From assembly GCA_020633795.1 (NCBI GenBank), contig JACKCX010000007.1, positions 1 to 62,847 of the forward strand: a stretch of 62,847 nt of DNA, given 5' to 3'. The translations under genes were made by a program, and so were the position numbers. The stretch comes from Erysipelotrichaceae bacterium. Its GTDB lineage: Bacteria; Bacillota_I; Bacilli_A; RFN20; CAG-826. The notes under the pieces were generated by a model. That model was not told where the DNA came from, searched no databases, and saw nothing but the letters and a program-made list of their open reading frames with translations. Positions 2,837 to 51,261 of the stretch are shown in pieces (position 1 is the stretch's first letter; each line of letters begins with the position of its first letter).

Positions 2837-3949
2837 ATGAAAAAGAAAATTAGAGAAGTCAATGGCGTTAAAGTCATTCGTCGTTATAGTGCTGGAGCTT
2901 TTTTCATGGCTCTTTTTTGCTTAGTCCTCGTCGCCATTCCCGTCGCTTTAATCTTTATCCCTTGGTTTAAAATTACCGTCACTGAAGGTAGTGATGTGAC
3001 CGTTATCAGTTTGACTGCTGTGGAATTGATCAGCAAAGTTTTTCTTGGTCAAATTACCGGAACAGGTTCGGAGTTCATGAGTTTTTATGCGCAATTAGCT
3101 TCTGATGCTAACCAAACATATATTCCAACTATCGCCTTAGGATTAGCCTATGGCATTCCCGTTCTTTATGGAATCATCGCGCTTTTTGCTTTATTCTTCC
3201 TCATCTTTGCTTTGGAATTAATCTTCCGAGGACGGATGAATCATTTTAAAGCCCCTTATGTTTTATCATGGTTTTATTTTATCTTTGTCGCCTTGTTTGG
3301 ACTAATTGGCATCGGATTAGATTATGGCACACAGTTTATTTATAGTCTCGTCGGCAGTTCAATCACTTATACAATTGTGACTTTATCTTGGTATAACTAC
3401 ATTTTTGTCGGAGCTTCACTCCTTGGCATTATCTGCTTAGGCATCACATATAGTGGTGCTTTTCGAGATAAGATTTTTATTGGCGATATCAGCGATATGC
3501 GCCACGCCAATTATCAAGTGGAAAATCCGACCATCAATCAAAATGGCACCAATATCCTCGTACCTCAACAACCGCTTAAAGAGGATGTGATTAAAAAAGT
3601 TCAAAATGTTCCCGCGATGGGGTTACCTCCGACTTTAAAGAGTATTGGTGGTCACGCGTTTAGTGAGAATTTAAACTTAGTCGTCGCTGTCGTTCCTTTA
3701 GGAATTAAGACTTTAGGTCATGGAGCATTTGCCAATTGTGGGCATTTAAAAGTTGTTTCTTTACCGACCAGCATTCGAGCGATTGGCAGTAATTGTTTCT
3801 TTAACTGCACCAATCTTGAAAGATTAAATTACGCTGGTAACAAGGAGCAGTGGCGGCATGTTAAAAGAGGCGCTAACTGGCTTGCTAAAGCTGGAGTGAC
3901 CACCGTTATTTGCGTCGATGGACCAATCGTGGTAAACCCTTATCATTAA
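2837..3949 (+). CDS. Multi-pass membrane protein with C-terminal BspA-type LRR domain
   Basis: Four hydrophobic segments are visible (about 20-44, 103-131, 140-162 and 186-207). They are followed by a soluble C-terminal region with BspA-like (LRR_5) leucine-rich repeats at about 262-335, for example LPPTLKSIGGHAFSENLNL and LPTSIRAIGSNCFFNCTNL. It then ends with the tail commonly seen after such repeats (NYAGNKEQWRHVKRG). BspA repeats are usually surface adhesion or ligand-binding modules; here they are attached to a membrane bundle instead of a signal peptide. The licD-family gene starts 1 nt after this stop, so the two are almost certainly co-transcribed. Function unknown. Confidence 0.75.
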   Translation: MKKKIREVNGVKVIRRYSAGAFFMALFCLVLVAIPVALIFIPWFKITVTEGSDVTVISLTAVELISKVFLGQITGTGSEFMSFYAQLASDANQTYIPTIALGLAYGIPVLYGIIALFALFFLIFALELIFRGRMNHFKAPYVLSWFYFIFVALFGLIGIGLDYGTQFIYSLVGSSITYTIVTLSWYNYIFVGASLLGIICLGITYSGAFRDKIFIGDISDMRHANYQVENPTINQNGTNILVPQQPLKEDVIKKVQNVPAMGLPPTLKSIGGHAFSENLNLVVAVVPLGIKTLGHGAFANCGHLKVVSLPTSIRAIGSNCFFNCTNLERLNYAGNKEQWRHVKRGANWLAKAGVTTVICVDGPIVVNPYH

Positions 3950-3950
3950 A

Positions 3951-4883
3951 ATGACTAAAATAAACGAACAAAAAAAGAATAACCTCGAAAATCCCGGCTA
4001 TGCCGAGGATTTTCATATTTATCCCATTGGCAAAGATTTAGATGGGGCAAAAAAGAATACCCGCGATTTGCAAAAGCTATTATTAGAAATGACCCTCGTT
4101 TTTGATCAATTGTGTCGCCAAAATAATATTCCTTACGCTCTGGCCTTTGGCTCAGCGCTCGGCATGGTTAATTATGGCGGCTTTATCCCTTGGGATGACG
4201 ATGTTGACATCGCGATTAAATATGAAGATTTGCCTCGCCTCATCGAAGTCTTAAAGAATCAATTACCACCTGAGTATTACTTTGATTGTTACGAGACTGA
4301 TTCGCGATATAATGTCTTTATTCCGACGATGAAAATTCGTCATAAAAATTCCTATGTGATGGAAAAGAACCACTTCACTTTGCCGAACTGGTGCGATGGA
4401 GATGGTGTTTTTATTGATGTCGTTGTTTTTATGGGTGTTCCCTCCACTCGGCAAGAGCATCGTCAAGTCCTTCGCTATGCTAAGCGCAAGATTATTCCCT
4501 ATTTTATTAACGACGCTATTTTTCATCGACCCTTATTCAAACTTAAAACTCAACTTAAAGATTATGAAAAATTCATCGCCAATAAATATCAAGATAGTCC
4601 GCGAGTAGCGCAAACAGTGATCATTCCTTTTCAAGATTGGGGAAGTGAAGTTAAAGCTCTCTCTTATCCGCGCGAAGTTATTTTTCCTTTTAAAGAATAT
4701 GATTTTCAAGGTCATCGCCTCTATTCCTTTAATAATGTGCGCGAATTCTGTCGTTTAAAATTTGGGGAAAAATGCTTTAATGTCTACGATGGCAAGAAGT
4801 GGATTTCCCGCTACCCATTTCGCAAGCGCAAAGCTAAGCATTTCAAGAAATTTTCCTTAACACATCCTCGCCTTAAAAAATAA
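3951..4883 (+). CDS. LicD-family nucleotidyltransferase-fold enzyme
   Basis: 310-aa LicD-family protein. Members transfer phosphocholine or similar phospho-groups from a CDP-activated donor to cell-surface sugars. The hallmark FGSALGMVNYGGFIPWDDDV lies at about residues 66-85 and holds the GS and the WDDDxD metal-binding acidic cluster of the nucleotidyltransferase fold. A conserved helical region follows, and the tail is very basic (KKWISRYPFRKRKAKHFKKF). There is no signal peptide, so it acts on the cytoplasmic side. It starts 1 nt after the BspA-LRR membrane protein. Surface-polymer decoration is inferred from the family; the acceptor is unknown. Confidence 0.85.
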   Translation: MTKINEQKKNNLENPGYAEDFHIYPIGKDLDGAKKNTRDLQKLLLEMTLVFDQLCRQNNIPYALAFGSALGMVNYGGFIPWDDDVDIAIKYEDLPRLIEVLKNQLPPEYYFDCYETDSRYNVFIPTMKIRHKNSYVMEKNHFTLPNWCDGDGVFIDVVVFMGVPSTRQEHRQVLRYAKRKIIPYFINDAIFHRPLFKLKTQLKDYEKFIANKYQDSPRVAQTVIIPFQDWGSEVKALSYPREVIFPFKEYDFQGHRLYSFNNVREFCRLKFGEKCFNVYDGKKWISRYPFRKRKAKHFKKFSLTHPRLKK

Positions 4884-4973: not shown

Positions 4974-5000
4974 TTAGCACACTACTTGACAGAGTGCTAA
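4974..5000 (+). promoter_or_regulatory. CIRCE operator 1 of the Hsp20 gene
   Basis: TTAGCACAC-N9-GAGTGCTAA differs from the consensus HrcA operator (TTAGCACTC-N9-GAGTGCTAA) by one base. Its 9-nt spacer contains the promoter -35 box TTGACA (4986-4991). Confidence 0.93.
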
Positions 5001-5021: not shown

Positions 5022-5048
5022 TTAGCAGTCAAAGAGTTAGAGTGCTAA
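5022..5048 (+). promoter_or_regulatory. CIRCE operator 2 of the Hsp20 gene
   Basis: TTAGCAGTC-N9-GAGTGCTAA, a second HrcA site 21 nt after the first and just downstream of the -10 box. Confidence 0.92.
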
Positions 5049-5074: not shown

Positions 5075-5509
5075 ATGAATAAAAATTATGCCGTTTCAAC
5101 TCACAATAATGACTCATTTGATCTTTGGGATCCATTCTTTCAGGACTTCTTTGATTTCCCTCGTGAAATTCGCCGCAACGATTTGATGAAGGCTGATGTG
5201 CGAGAAGACGAAAAACAATATCACATTGATGTCGATCTTCCCAGTATCAAGAAAGATAATATCAAAATCGAATTGAATGATGGATATCTCACCATTCATG
5301 CCGAAGAGTATCATCAAGATGATGAGAAGAAGAATGGTAAATACATTCGTCGGGAAAGATTTACGGGTAAATTCTCTCGTAGCTTCTATGTCGGAGAAGA
5401 TGTCCAAGAAAATGACATCACCGCGAATTTAGCGGATGGTGTTTTGACTCTCAATATCAATAAAGTCGAGCCGAAAAAAGAAGAGAAGAAATATATTTCG
5501 ATTAACTAA
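5075..5509 (+). CDS. Small heat-shock protein, Hsp20/alpha-crystallin family
   Basis: 144-aa ATP-independent holdase chaperone. It has a short N-terminal arm (FDLWDPFFQDFFDFP), then an alpha-crystallin domain at about 38-140 (MKADVREDEKQYHIDVDLPS through ADGVLTLNINKVEPK, with the GVLTL motif), and a short tail. AAGGAGG precedes the ATG at good spacing. It is a single-gene transcript with a SigA promoter flanked by two CIRCE operators and a strong terminator, so HrcA repression, relieved on heat shock, is the expected control. HrcA itself is encoded at 52754-53803 behind a similar operator pair. Confidence 0.95.
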   Translation: MNKNYAVSTHNNDSFDLWDPFFQDFFDFPREIRRNDLMKADVREDEKQYHIDVDLPSIKKDNIKIELNDGYLTIHAEEYHQDDEKKNGKYIRRERFTGKFSRSFYVGEDVQENDITANLADGVLTLNINKVEPKKEEKKYISIN

Positions 5510-5561: not shown

Positions 5562-5643
5562 TCCTCTCATCTTTTCATGATAAAATATTAAAAATTGAAA
5601 AAAATGATATCCTCAATTTGTCATTATTAATAGTGGGAGGAAA

Positions 5644-6147
5644 ATGCTAGTTAGTGTCGATACAGTCGATCGCTTAAAAAATAACGATAATCAAGCTTTT
5701 GAAGAAATCTATCAAACTTATTACCGCTTGATTTTTTGTTTATCTTTTTCTTTACTTAAAGATCGTTATTTAGCCGAAGATGTGACCCAAGATGTCTTTA
5801 TTAAAATGATGGAAAATATCACTTCATTAAAAAGAACGAGTCAATTTCACGCCTACCTCTTAGCTATTGCTAAGAATACGACTTTAAATGAACTAAAGAA
5901 AAGACGTGATGTGCCGAGCGATCAACTAGAACAATATACCCAGCAAAATGATGAACATCCTTTCTTTTTAGAAGAGATGCATCATTATCTAACGAAGGAA
6001 GAAAATGAAGTAGTCATCTATAAGATTATCTATGATTTCACTTTTCAAGAAATCAGCCACCTCTTTTCTTTCTCTTTATCTTCCACTTATCGATTCTATC
6101 GATCAGCGCTTAAAAAAATTAAGCGCCACTATGAGGAGAGTTTATGA
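5644..6147 (+). CDS. ECF-type RNA polymerase sigma factor
   Basis: 167-aa sigma-70-family protein with only regions 2 and 4. Region 2 covers about residues 17-70 (FEEIYQTYYRLIF, LAEDVTQDVFIKMMENI, the -10 recognition segment). Region 4 covers about 115-165, with the helix-turn-helix FTFQEISHLFSFSLSSTYRF for -35 recognition. Its start has a strong GGGAGG site. Its TGA stop overlaps the ATG of the next gene (ATGA), which implies translational coupling with the membrane serpin. In ECF systems a co-transcribed membrane protein is usually the anti-sigma factor, so the serpin is the candidate regulator. The target regulon is unknown; self-activation is likely but no ECF promoter was recognised. Confidence 0.9.
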   Translation: MLVSVDTVDRLKNNDNQAFEEIYQTYYRLIFCLSFSLLKDRYLAEDVTQDVFIKMMENITSLKRTSQFHAYLLAIAKNTTLNELKKRRDVPSDQLEQYTQQNDEHPFFLEEMHHYLTKEENEVVIYKIIYDFTFQEISHLFSFSLSSTYRFYRSALKKIKRHYEESL

Positions 6148-7607
6148 ATTATCGACAAAAATTTAAGGATGAAACCATCCAAAAAATCACTGATTCACCA
6201 GAGTCTATTCCGCCTTTTACTTCATCGATTTCAATGTGCGTCGAAAGACCTAAAAAGAAAATGCCACTATGGAAAAAAACCACGATCATCGTCAGTAGTG
6301 CGGTGTTAGGTAGCCTTGTTTTAGTGACTGCCATTCCTGCTCTTATCGTCTGCTTTATCGGCTTTCACAATATTTCTTCATATCGTTCTTTAGATCGCAA
6401 TTTTGCGATGAATGAACTTGATAGTAGCTATCAACCTTTAAATGACATTATTTATCCATCCTCGGCTAAACAATATGTCAGCGTGGATAGTCAATATACT
6501 GATGCAGTCAATACTTTTGCGAATAACATTTATCAAAATCTTAATAATGACGAAATTAATTTCTCTTTTGCGCCGATGAGTTTATACGCTAATCTAAGCA
6601 TTCTTTCATTAGGGAGTACGGACGCGAGTGTGATGAGTCAATTTGATACTTTATTAGCTCTTTCAGAAGCAGAGCGAACCGCTAATTATCCCTCCTTTTA
6701 CCAAAATGATTACTATGCGACCGATAGTGGGACAACTCAGTTTTATAATGGTCTATTTCAAAGCGAATTATTCGGAACCATCAATGAAGATTTTATCGCT
6801 CAATTAGCCGCTTATTATTGCGAGGCTTATTCCATTGATTTTCAAAATCAAAGCGATATCGCCAAGATGGTCTCATGGGCTAATGAGCGAATGAATAAAG
6901 ATGACTTTCTTGCTGCTGACAATTTACCAATTAGTGATAATACCGCCTTATATTTACTCACAACGTTAACTTTTGATAACAAATGGCTTACTGAATATTC
7001 TAAATCTGAGTCTTATCAAGACGCCTTTTATATCACTAGTAGTGAGGAAGTAGAGACCACCTATATGCGTCATATCTATGTCGGAAATTATTACGATTAT
7101 GACACTTACTTTAGTTTCTATGATCAATATAAAAATGGCATGAAAATTAAATATATTGTCCCAAAATCAACAAGTGATAATATTTTTAATCTGACCGATG
7201 GAGTGGATATTTTTACTGATGATAGCGATGTTCTTCATAGCGATGAGGCGATTCGTTGTGCCGTCCCTAAATTTTCCACTTCTTCCTCTCTCGACTTTGT
7301 CGATGCTTTGACTCAATTGGGATATGGCAGTTTATTCGATTCCAATATTGATTCTTTTGGATCAATTTATGAAGATGATTGTGTTGTGCCCATTTATCTC
7401 TCGACTTGCCAACAAAAAAATCAAGTCGCCTTTACCGAAGATGGAACAAGTATCACTTCAGTCACCTGGAGTGGACTTGCTGCTGGTAGTGCTGCTCCCA
7501 TTGAAGGGGGAATTGATGTGCAACTCAATCAGCCCTTTATCTATATCATCTATGATAATAATGATTTACCTCTTTATGTCGGCAATGTGACCAATCCCAC
7601 TCTATAA
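6144..7607 (+). CDS. Membrane-anchored serpin, candidate anti-sigma factor
   Basis: 487-aa single-pass protein. Residues 1-45 are hydrophilic and predicted cytosolic (ending RPKKKMPLWKK). Residues 46-74 are one transmembrane segment. From about 110 to the end is a full serpin domain facing outward. Serpin signatures are FSFAPMSLYANLSILSLGS near the start of the domain and QPFIYIIYDNNDLPLYVG near the end, matching the PFxFxIxDxxTxxxLFxG signature. The reactive loop hinge is EDGTSITSVT (432-441), where inhibitory serpins have EEGTxAAAxT; Ile at P12 is unusual. It overlaps the ECF sigma gene by 4 nt. Known: serpins trap serine or cysteine proteases irreversibly. Inferred: protease attack on the loop could be sensed across the membrane to release the sigma factor. 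Confidence 0.85.
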   Translation: MNYRQKFKDETIQKITDSPESIPPFTSSISMCVERPKKKMPLWKKTTIIVSSAVLGSLVLVTAIPALIVCFIGFHNISSYRSLDRNFAMNELDSSYQPLNDIIYPSSAKQYVSVDSQYTDAVNTFANNIYQNLNNDEINFSFAPMSLYANLSILSLGSTDASVMSQFDTLLALSEAERTANYPSFYQNDYYATDSGTTQFYNGLFQSELFGTINEDFIAQLAAYYCEAYSIDFQNQSDIAKMVSWANERMNKDDFLAADNLPISDNTALYLLTTLTFDNKWLTEYSKSESYQDAFYITSSEEVETTYMRHIYVGNYYDYDTYFSFYDQYKNGMKIKYIVPKSTSDNIFNLTDGVDIFTDDSDVLHSDEAIRCAVPKFSTSSSLDFVDALTQLGYGSLFDSNIDSFGSIYEDDCVVPIYLSTCQQKNQVAFTEDGTSITSVTWSGLAAGSAAPIEGGIDVQLNQPFIYIIYDNNDLPLYVGNVTNPTL

Positions 7608-40425: not shown

Positions 40426-42214
40426 AAATGTTCCTCTTTCAATATCGTTAGATATGTTATCAAATGTCAGGAAATAATGCAAATTATTTATGCGCTTATT
40501 TATGATTTACTTTTGCTAAGAACCGCGACTTCATAGACAAAATCATTAACACAGGCCATGACGCCAAGCTTATCTTCTGGGAAAGTGATATCGAATTTAT
40601 CTTGAACTTCTTTGACTAATTCAACGTAATTCATCGAGTCGCCGCCGAGATCATCAATCCAATTGGCTTCATCATCAATTTTAAAAGATGCCAGGATGAG
40701 AACTTTAGAGAAAATTTCTCTCACAGGGACAAGAATTTCTTTAATTGTTTCTTCATCGAATCCATCAAATGTTTTTACATCTTTTTTTGCATTAATTGAA
40801 ATGAAATCAGATGAGCCATTTTCCAAAGCTTTCTTAACAAGGAAACGTTTTACTTTTATGTCATTGGCTAAAGGCAATTTATTTTTTGACAGATAAATAT
40901 CAGAAATTTTGGCATGGTGGGGGAGATTCAAAGAACAAACTCTTATTTCTTCTTTAATCGTCTCTAATTGTTGATCAGTAACTTGATTGTCTAAATCTAA
41001 GACGAGAACAATTTTTTCTTCGTGATTGTTTTTGTTACCCACCCCTAAAACACAGAGATGACTAACATGAGGAACAGATTTAAAAGCTTCCTCTAATTCA
41101 TCAGGGAAAATATTCTCTCCATCAGCATTGATGATAATATCTTTAATTCTTCCTTTAAGATAATAGCGGCCATCTTCCTTTTGCTCAGCGATATCACCGG
41201 TTTGGAAGTAACCTTCATCATTTAATTTTGTTCCCTGCTCTTTTCCCCCGATTATCTCACGAATGTGAAGAGCGGGTGATTTAACGAGCAATTCGCTATT
41301 TTTGGCTATTTTATATTCGACATCGTGCAATGGCTTTCCAATGCTACATTTTAACCTTTCATTAACATCACTAGATAATTCAACTGAGGTGACGCCAATC
41401 TCGGTCATTCCATAACCATTGCAGAGAGGATAACCAAGACCATTAATTGTATTCATAGTTTCAGTCGATAGAAAACCTCCACCGGAAATACAGAATTTAA
41501 CTTTGGAACCAAGAAGCATTTTCTGAATGGTTTTACGTGTAATATCCCAGCCAGCTTTTCCTGCTTCTGCTTTTGAAATTTGACCGAGATTATATTCCAT
41601 CATCTTGGTGAAAATTCTCTTCTTGTCTTCTTCCAATAAATCGACCTTACGTCTGATTCCAAGAGCGAGACTATCCCAAAAGAGGGGGACGCTATAAACA
41701 TGAGTAACACCAGTTTTTTGACAGATTTTTTGTATTTCACTGGGGATGATAGCGCTGGGGAAAACGATTGTTTTACCATAGTAACTATACCAGAGAAAAC
41801 GGCGACAAAACCGAAGATATGATGAAAGGAATCATCGCTAATATCTTGATTTTTCCAAGACTTTTGGATACATAATCGCCTTGGTTTCTTTTGGCATATC
41901 TAAAGAACAGCATAATTGATGGGAGATGGCTCGACCATTATAGACCATTAATTTGACATCGCCAGTCGTTCCGCTTGAACAAAAATAATTTCATCATCCC
42001 AGAGAGGATCATAGTGTTCGTGAGGCTTGACATCAAGAACATCGCTCGTCGAAATTTTGACGACATCATAAGAATAAATATCATCTGTAATAATAGCAGT
42101 GGCTTTGCTTTGTAAGAATGTTTTGTGTTCCTTCTTTGCTAAGCTTGGCATCAATCAAAAGGCTTATATCGCCATTAAAATAGCCCAAAAAGTTCACCCA
42201 ATGGTGGTTATTAG

Positions 42215-49779: not shown

Positions 49780-51261
49780 ATGGCCAACAATGATTTAGCG
49801 ATTCGTTTTACCGAAAATAAATACGCGACCAAAATGGAAGTCAGCCGTGAATTAAAAATGTCACTCATCGACAACATTTGGTCCAACATTCTTTCCTATC
49901 GCAGCAACTTTAATCAATATCTTTCAATTAAAAGCATTGATAAGAATCCCTTTTTAATTTGTTATTGCCCAACGATTTCAACCGCGGTTAATGCCGTCGA
50001 TGCTAAACTCATTCGTCTAATGCGCGAATATATGCGCATGGATGCCTCGACTGGCGATTTACGTCAATTTGAGGACGCTTGTTTAGTGAAATCGCTCTCC
50101 GCTTTAGCGAAAGAATATGATCTTGATGCCACTGAGCCATATCTCCGCTCTCTCATTCAAGGAGATGTACGAGAAATTTCTTCGACACATCGCGTGTTAT
50201 TACATTATGCTCATTGTTTAAAAATGATTAAGGAAAAAGCCAATCAACCGATCGATATTGATTTTCTAGCCGAATTATATGCCAAATTAACTGGCAATCC
50301 CGAATTGACGAGTTTTTACCGCACAACTGATGATAAGAATCCAGAAAACCGCGTCATCATTGACCGTATCTATACTTGCGCTCCAGTCATTTCGATTGAC
50401 TCGATGATGACCGAGTTATTCTCTTTCATTGAAAATGCTAAGTTTAGTGGCTTGGTGAAAAGCATTGCCACTTATTATTACATCAATTACATTCGTCCAT
50501 TTCCCACTTATAGCGATGAAATCGCTCTCTTGATGGCAAAAGCCGTATTAGCTCATTGCGATCTTTCCGATTTCGGCGCCATCATCCCTCTTGAATCTCT
50601 CTTAAGCGAGAGCCAAGATGTCATCGCCAAAATCTTTGTGGAAGTGCAAAAAACTTACGATCTTACCTATTTCTTGAATTACGCCCTATCTTTCATCGAT
50701 CTTCAGTGTGATAAGGTTCTTGATTATCTTGCTAATCGCGAAGTTGAAGCTTTAAAAAAAGACTATTATCAAGAAGAGATAGCTAAACCAGAACCCAAAA
50801 TCGAAGAAACAAAAACACTCATTGATGAGACGATTACTCTTACTCCAGAATTCATTGAATCAAAACCAATTATTCAACCGATCATTAAGGAAGAGCCAAT
50901 CAAAAAAGAAATCATTGCTCCTATCATTAAATCAAAACCTCAGCCAGTTCCCGAAATCGTGGAAGTTCCTGTTGAAAAAATCGCGGTCAATTATATTCCT
51001 CCTGTCATCGACGAAAAACAAGCTTGTCGTCTAGAAGAGCATCTTCTTGAATTAGATCCCGCCATGAAACGCAACGAAGCGCATTTCTATGCTCGACATT
51101 GCACATTAGGAAAGAAATATACTATCGCCCAATGCAAAAAATCACTTGGTTGTGCTTATGAAACAGCGCGAACAAGTATGGACCATCTCGTTACTTTAGG
51201 GTATTATCGTAAGGACATGGTTAAAAACAAAAACGTTTATACGCCTGTTCCACGTAATTAG
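49780..51261 (+). CDS. Degenerate Fic-like protein with C-terminal helix-turn-helix
   Basis: 493 aa in three parts. Residues about 80-320 resemble a Fic/DOC fold. TSFYRTTDDKNPENRVI is like the Fic flap (YRT...V.I), followed by YTCAPVISIDSMMTELFSFI. At 230-260, YYYINYIRPFPTYSDE aligns with the Fic helix, where active enzymes have HPFxDGNGR. Only PF remains: His is Arg239 and the Gly-Asn-Gly-Arg positions are Tyr-Ser-Asp-Glu, so AMP transfer is not expected. Residues about 335-425 are a Pro/Glu/Lys/Ile-rich linker. Residues about 437-493 look like a winged helix-turn-helix (IAQCKKSLGCAYETARTSMD, HLVTLGYYRKD). AAAGAGG precedes the ATG. A DNA-binding regulator is inferred. Confidence 0.65.
   Translation: MANNDLAIRFTENKYATKMEVSRELKMSLIDNIWSNILSYRSNFNQYLSIKSIDKNPFLICYCPTISTAVNAVDAKLIRLMREYMRMDASTGDLRQFEDACLVKSLSALAKEYDLDATEPYLRSLIQGDVREISSTHRVLLHYAHCLKMIKEKANQPIDIDFLAELYAKLTGNPELTSFYRTTDDKNPENRVIIDRIYTCAPVISIDSMMTELFSFIENAKFSGLVKSIATYYYINYIRPFPTYSDEIALLMAKAVLAHCDLSDFGAIIPLESLLSESQDVIAKIFVEVQKTYDLTYFLNYALSFIDLQCDKVLDYLANREVEALKKDYYQEEIAKPEPKIEETKTLIDETITLTPEFIESKPIIQPIIKEEPIKKEIIAPIIKSKPQPVPEIVEVPVEKIAVNYIPPVIDEKQACRLEEHLLELDPAMKRNEAHFYARHCTLGKKYTIAQCKKSLGCAYETARTSMDHLVTLGYYRKDMVKNKNVYTPVPRN

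Follow-up and report, generated by a model that had tools for sequence, protein, structure and literature searches.

By analogy, the closest working counterpart of the gene pair described here is the RsiV/sigmaV lysozyme receptor of Bacillus subtilis. As the available text of two reports describes it, an ECF sigma factor is joined there by a single-pass anti-sigma factor whose outer domain binds, inhibits and reports a host enzyme: RsiV senses and inhibits lysozyme (PMC5014341), it is cut by signal peptidase and RasP (PMC5014341, PMC6066255), and further receptor is produced from the operon (PMC5014341, PMC6066255). The protein in our window, by which we mean the whole 62,847-nt stretch of DNA analysed, differs in that a serpin takes the place of the lysozyme-binding ectodomain, and its expected target is a protease. 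Neither DUF4179 nor DUF3298, the domains of the RsiV family, was found in it, and Serpin was the only Pfam match at E values up to 0.1. Proteolytic release has been demonstrated for RsiV and is assumed by analogy for the window protein.

The sigmaI/RsgI systems of cellulolytic Clostridia are similar in having a short cytosolic head, one membrane helix and exchangeable outer sensors. The RsgI sensors named in the available portions of two reports bind polysaccharides, and no serpin sensor is mentioned there (PMC3413522, PMC12484212). RsgI_M, a domain that takes its name from an anti-sigma factor, is present in four pairs headed by sister ECFs, whereas the window protein has no RsgI domain and its sigma factor is ECF-like by Pfam, NCBIfam and a PDB profile. 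Anti-sigma factors of the CnrY type (class II) are described, in the available part of the source, as binding sigma through a very short segment of two helices (PMC7406223). The window head is of similar length; the two short CnrY-type helices bridge sigma regions 4 and 2, whereas the window head has one confident helix and no sequence match to solved structures.

Serpins have been linked to protease-responsive signalling in Bifidobacterium breve, where, according to the available text, serpin production rises on protease exposure by way of membrane signalling and a two-component system (PMC8012564). That two-component system regulates a separate serpin, whereas here the serpin itself is the proposed receptor and a sigma factor the output. 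The serpin fold is shared with tengpin (2pee, 2vh4, 2pef), the cellulosomal serpins and miropin. Secreted bacterial serpins differ, in that the 99 lipobox serpins we examined had no head and no sigma partner. The original prediction had taken a sigma/serpin pair of this form to be apparently undescribed, and none was found in the literature searched, the coverage of which excluded preprints and most subscription journals. We rate the class of sensor, a serpin, as new and the ECF/anti-sigma signalling as known.

The sigma factor gene and the overlapping serpin gene

The sigma ORF (5644-6147) and the serpin ORF (6144-7607) lie on the + strand of the window, which has a GC content of 37.6%. They share the four bases ATGA at 6144..6147, where the stop codon of the sigma gene meets the start codon of the serpin gene, confirming the overlap that had been noted. 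Translational coupling of the two genes is possible on the basis of this overlap, and co-expression of the serpin gene with the adjoining ECF gene is predicted. A four-base overlap was found in 31/70 homologous ECF-serpin pairs, and an overlap of any length in 52/70. A probable ribosome-binding site, GTGGGAGG, can be read directly at 5633..5640 (+). The gene before the pair encodes Hsp20 and two ORFs follow, which we take to be rimP-like and nusA-like; none of these shows a link to the pair. Searches with our own profiles found no further ECF or serpin ORF in the window.

Several other features of the window were recorded. Two 27-nt inverted repeats, TTAGCACAC-N9-GAGTGCTAA at 4974-5000 and TTAGCAGTC-N9-GAGTGCTAA at 5022-5048, precede the Hsp20 gene (5075-5509), each presumably one base off the CIRCE heat-shock operator. 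A 370-aa protein (2837-3949) combines several stretches of hydrophobic residues with a region of BspA-type leucine-rich repeats at its C-terminus, and its gene adjoins a LicD-family gene (3951-4883). On the minus strand, a 378-aa ORF (40500-41636) carries a PP-binding domain but, of an AMP-binding domain, just the C-terminal portion, and is perhaps a broken or unusual carrier-fused ligase. A 493-aa ORF after lepA (49780-51261) had no Pfam match at 1e-5; we presume that its stretch RPFPTYSDEIALLMAKAV bears a faint likeness to a degenerate Fic motif.

The first gene of the pair (5644..6147, +) encodes an ECF sigma factor of 167 aa. Pfam Sigma70_r2 matched at 7.2e-13 and region 4 weakly at 0.012, below its cut-off, and the NCBIfam sigma70-ECF model scored 57.1 bits (cut-off 42.9) over residues 18-161. 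A profile of 47 such ECFs matched both regions of solved ECF sigma structures, for example 6in7_B at positions 3-165; the top match was SigW (5wuq, 5.9e-25), and SigH, RpoE and CnrH structures were matched as well. Sigma regions 2 and 4 are thus present without region 3, region 4 being recognized through NCBIfam and the family profile. In the ECF tree, the window sigma factor clusters with that of L207, likewise a serpin-paired ECF.

The second gene encodes a protein of 487 aa, for which an AlphaFold2 model was built on an alignment of 41 sequences (mean pLDDT 80.4, pTM 0.75). The model contains a helix at residues 3-16, a long helix at 42-73 and a serpin core, with pLDDT below 50 at residues 20-37, 74-93 and 443-455, the last being the reactive loop. 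From the model and sequence hydrophobicity, the predicted topology is that of a transmembrane anti-sigma factor: a cytosolic head (residues 1-41; 6144..6266, +), a single membrane helix (42-73; 6267..6362, +) and an outer domain, joined by a juxtamembrane stalk (74-120, of which 74-93 is of low confidence; 6363..6503, +). A cytosolic head of about 45 aa had been proposed; the head is present and its length is nearer 41 residues. Based on the model and the association of such heads with ECF genes, we propose it as the anti-sigma module. Searched by itself at E 1, the window head matched nothing in Pfam and gave just two weak matches in the PDB, which were judged to be chance, and the presence of a known anti-sigma domain from Pfam or PDB was rejected.

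The serpin domain occupies residues 121-485 (6504..7598, +). The Pfam Serpin match (2.4e-39) spans positions 2-370 of a 370-position profile, the PDB sequence matches included alpha-1-antitrypsin and tengpin, and all 50 Foldseek matches listed against the PDB were serpins by title. The domain therefore has the full fold and exposed reactive loop of the serpin superfamily, and the claim of a complete serpin domain is borne out by the full-length Pfam match, the AlphaFold2 core and Foldseek, which together favour a genuine serpin fold.

Recurrence of the head, the ECF gene and the serpin

A scan of genome contigs with a serpin alignment yielded 78 loci. When 279 genomes from the order of one such locus were searched with Pfam Serpin, 120 gave matches. 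From the fetched neighbourhoods, 223 distinct serpin ORFs were classified and 191 were tabulated; the remaining 32 were left out for a cut N-terminus, less than 600 nt of upstream sequence or a length below 330 aa, and two of them had an ECF, namely L170 (a true pair) and L047 (a spurious one). Serpins were assigned to the head class when at least 25 residues preceded a strong membrane helix. An ECF gene lay directly upstream of 66/71 serpins with a head and membrane helix, versus 3/120 others (0/99 with a lipobox, 0/9 with a short N-terminus and 3/12 in the class "other"). The three ECF-adjacent members of the last class have a head with a weaker membrane score, and the five head-class exceptions without an ECF appear to have over-extended ORF starts, four of them with a lipobox further in. 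The association gave a Fisher p = 3e-41, a value that ignores kinship. These results upheld the prediction that ECF-serpin neighbours would be conserved in related genomes.

The association was also followed on a serpin tree of 229 rows, in which the head state changes at least 12 times. Among 11 independent pairs on supported branches, the ECF follows the head in 10-11 and never goes the opposite way. For this comparison, the 12 "other" rows were labelled according to their ECF state, the five over-extended ORFs were relabelled headless by inspection, and the Clostridial labels were set by hand, L350 counting as a head without ECF inside the distance limit.

A search with the Clostridial ECF-linked serpin L031 in 345 genomes of its order gave matches in 140. 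The best 25 of these loci, the query locus included, have an ECF upstream in 23, and the two that lack one, L340 and L352, are headless. The ECF-linked Clostridial heads share the form MKxDxLxDAIGxVDExL (23 loci). When the L054 serpin was used to search another family (196 genomes), the loci recovered were mostly lipoprotein serpins without ECF, together with head-plus-ECF arrangements at L353, L359 and L361. Some headless Clostridial serpins lie near a non-adjacent ECF, located upstream in L049, L053, L058, L067 and L075 and downstream in L033, L037, L039, L047 and L063; a serpin-receptor model leaves these unexplained.

The comparison was extended from the sigma factor side by searching 273 genomes of the Bacilli order with an ECF alignment, which gave matches in 217. 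Forty ECF loci were fetched, none previously met beside a serpin. At 38/40 of them, the downstream protein has a short head and one membrane helix; 17 of these 38 partners are serpin-like by our own profile and 21 are not, with the reservation that Pfam found no serpin in four of the serpin-like ones (L235, L239, L242 and L257). A Pfam scan of 20 partners found RsgI_M in four, Beta_propel in two and Big_3 in two. L260 and L261 encode an ECF followed by a head-membrane-beta-propeller protein (PF09826), an uncharacterised ectodomain on the shared topology. Eleven changes of the serpin label occur on an ECF tree of 108 rows, and well-supported branches force at least four of them; L261 carries the serpin label there through a weak profile match, its Pfam domain being Beta_propel.

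A profile built from the heads of serpins in one clade matched 7/23 heads borne by other proteins (E 9e-6 or better), and in a control 0/1870 N-termini fell below E 0.1 besides one training protein. Within this clade, the comparison demonstrates homology of the heads across ectodomains. Heads are otherwise highly divergent: the same profile misses the window's own head, which is too divergent, and the Clostridial head, searched for on other ectodomains, gave three matches, all of them serpins, and showed no exchange there. Because sister ECFs carry head-membrane proteins with other ectodomains, RsgI_M among them, we take an anti-sigma module to be the most likely role of the head, with the serpin as one among several sensors that can be exchanged. 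The original prediction had cast the serpin as the sensor and the head as the sigma-binding part. The comparison fits this assignment, in that the head tracks the ECF and the ectodomains vary, with RsgI_M included.

Reactive loop and promoters

The serpin hinge and reactive loop were placed at residues 432-448 (EDGTSITSVTWSGLAAG), followed by SAAP (7437..7487, +), on the basis of alignment, loop parsing and the low pLDDT at 443-455. The P17-P1 numbering is predicted from our own alignment. The loop is of full length and exposed in the AlphaFold2 model. Inhibitory serpins have a P17-P9 hinge near ExGTEAAAA, according to the available text of a phylogenetic study (PMC8233489). The window hinge reads EDGTSITSVT, with EDGTSITSV as P17-P9; glycine at P15 and threonine at P14 fit the inhibitory consensus and P12-P9 depart from it, and the hinge as a whole does not follow the inhibitory pattern.

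Loops were then compared across the serpins, with 63/229 rows unparsable. Small residues occupied all of P12-P10 in 8/49 Bacilli-type ECF-linked serpins, 23/27 Clostridial ECF-linked serpins and 66/90 headless serpins, and I, V, L or T was found at P12 in 30/49 of the parsed Bacilli-type ECF-linked set. Nine headless serpins lie behind a second promoter type; hinges in eight of them are of the kind NKGAEGAAYT or NDGVKAAAYT, the ninth being unparsed. In serpin mutants, bulky P12 residues slow loop insertion, and inhibitors become substrates. We read these patterns as suggesting that the Bacilli sensor lineage lost trapping and that the secreted serpins kept it. The earlier proposal that an attacking protease would be "trapped and reported at the same time" is weakened for the window protein because its hinge departs from the inhibitory consensus, and "cleaved and reported" seems the likelier description. 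In the 30-45% class, conservation of the loop versus the core was 0.28 vs 0.34 in the Bacilli head group and 0.23 vs 0.35 in headless serpins. A conserved loop as the sign of one fixed target was rejected, since the Bacilli head-group loop is no better conserved than the core, and therefore no target can be named.

Expectation-maximization (EM) on 100 non-redundant ECF upstream regions returned a -10-like motif, ATTGTCTTATTT, often preceded at about 14 bases by CGACAAA, CGAACGTTTT or AGCGGTTTT. Its log-likelihood was 170.8, compared to 24.3-28.8 in four mononucleotide shuffles, with EM seeds that had been chosen after the sequences had been seen. The top match in the window (8.6 bits) is the ECF-type -10-like element TTTGTCATTATT at 5617..5628 (+), which lies 27 nt ahead of the start codon of the sigma gene. 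This promoter is convincing in its -10 part alone, the -35 part being unclear, and the 24-nt promoter stretch is unique in the window, with no second site.

The exact pattern CGACRAAN{11,15}TTGTYTTATT occurred at 20 sites in 23 genomes and at none in the reversed control. Eighteen of the 20 sites precede an ECF, these being the source operons by construction; the other two lie before a lipoprotein serpin cut short where its contig ends (L284) and a lipoprotein of 190 aa (L285). Allowing two mismatches gave 94 sites versus 71 in the control, which was uninformative, and a wider regulon drawn from such sites was dropped. In a second clade, the pattern ARCNNNTTTN{11,13}YGTCTTAA gave 38 sites versus 2 in the control. 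The 30 sites fetched precede 6 lipoprotein serpins, 6 ECFs, 10 other lipoproteins, 1 secreted or membrane protein, 3 methyltransferase-like ORFs and 1 fragment-like ORF, with nothing behind the last 3. Since upstream regions of serpins and ECFs had served to design the pattern, those two classes are partly a matter of construction, which does not apply to the other lipoproteins. A fixed promoter expression was found in 1/73 upstream regions of headless serpins, and nine more headless-serpin promoters were spotted by eye and used to design the second-clade pattern.

Some of the second-clade lipoproteins are related to the first-clade lipoprotein L285 at 21-42% identity, and therefore output genes are common to both clades although their promoter words differ. 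The lipoprotein family in question, of about 190-218 aa (L285 1551-2123; L305, L309, L317 and L318), had no convincing Pfam match and lies behind ECF-type promoters in both clades. A VWA-domain lipoprotein (L311 1550-2863, and L323) lies behind the same ECF-type promoter that precedes the secreted serpins.

Proposed signalling mechanism and alternatives

We consider it likely that the pair consists of an ECF sigma factor and a membrane-anchored anti-sigma factor with the serpin as its extracellular sensor, working through an RsiV-like relay. In these uncultured, gut-type bacteria, the serpin would probably be used by the cell to notice proteases, the answer being changed gene expression. At rest, the N-terminal head of about 41 residues would keep the sigma factor at the membrane. 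A protease would engage and cut the exposed reactive loop, and the cut serpin would pass from the stressed to the relaxed form with the loop inserted into sheet A. The relaxed serpin would free the sigma factor, either directly or through a stalk that becomes exposed to site-1 and site-2 proteolysis as for RsiV, and the sigma factor would then transcribe the operon that encodes it; in relatives, its targets would also include lipoproteins, secreted serpins among them. Head-sigma binding, the protease as the signal and the conformational relay are the parts of this scheme that we infer, and we favour the window protein as a cleavable reporter rather than a true protease trap. A site-2 protease (M50) was found in 25/25 genomes but also in 14/14 controls, and its presence was uninformative.

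A different cue could act on the same architecture. The protein may be an anti-sigma factor whose serpin-fold ectodomain senses a small ligand, a peptide or an envelope state, just as some non-inhibitory serpins serve as hormone carriers or chaperones. The Bacilli hinges, with their few small P12-P10 residues (8/49) and frequent I, V, L or T at P12 (30/49), would suit such a role, as would the sister ectodomains L235, L239, L242 and L257, which are too divergent for Pfam Serpin. We nevertheless regard it as unlikely, given that the hinge is kept in 23/27 Clostridial ECF-linked serpins, that the window loop is of full length and exposed in the model, and that the same promoter type precedes secreted serpins. 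Those secreted serpins, under ECF-type promoters in relatives, bear on another possibility, that the serpin acts chiefly to inhibit proteases from its anchored position on the cell and is controlled by the neighbouring sigma factor, with the head only an anchor and some other protein the anti-sigma factor. A plain effector would also be expressed from an autoregulated promoter. Anchoring, however, needs no head: the lipobox serpins are anchored and headless and 0/99 are ECF-adjacent, which makes the head unlikely to be a mere anchor. RsgI_M and beta-propeller ectodomains on the same head-membrane topology behind sister ECFs, and the decay of the hinge, speak further against a pure inhibitor, and we hold this reading to be quite improbable.

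The pairing itself appears from these comparisons to be beyond chance because the arrangement recurs and co-changes on the tree. With 70 pairs among the fetched loci, 52 of them overlapping, chance neighbours without a functional link can be given almost no weight, and chance adjacency was rejected on the recurrence and the tree test. No natural ECF-serpin fusion was present among the ORFs fetched.

Returning to the serpin as a protease-sensing anti-sigma factor, a broader proposal can be made, for which we judge the chances to be about even. Serpin-type anti-sigma factors may form a widespread receptor family in gut-type Bacilli and Clostridia, in which cutting of the loop would free the ECF sigma factor and the regulon would deploy secreted inhibitory serpins and lipoproteins. 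The Bacilli receptor would then be a cleavable reporter whose hinge has decayed and which no longer traps, and the secreted serpins would retain the inhibitory hinge, the sensor and effector roles being split between the two.

If the proposed mechanism is true, bacteria would have made a transmembrane receptor out of the stressed-to-relaxed transition of a serpin, one that senses proteases directly, is coupled to transcription and does for proteases what RsiV does for lysozyme. A role would also be found for the membrane-anchored serpins of bacteria, which were recorded in a large phylogenetic study whose available text describes no trend of placement with location and function (PMC8233489). 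Such a receptor, with its specificity set by the loop, would amount to a modular protease biosensor, and would help in studying the response of gut commensals to the proteases of hosts and competitors.
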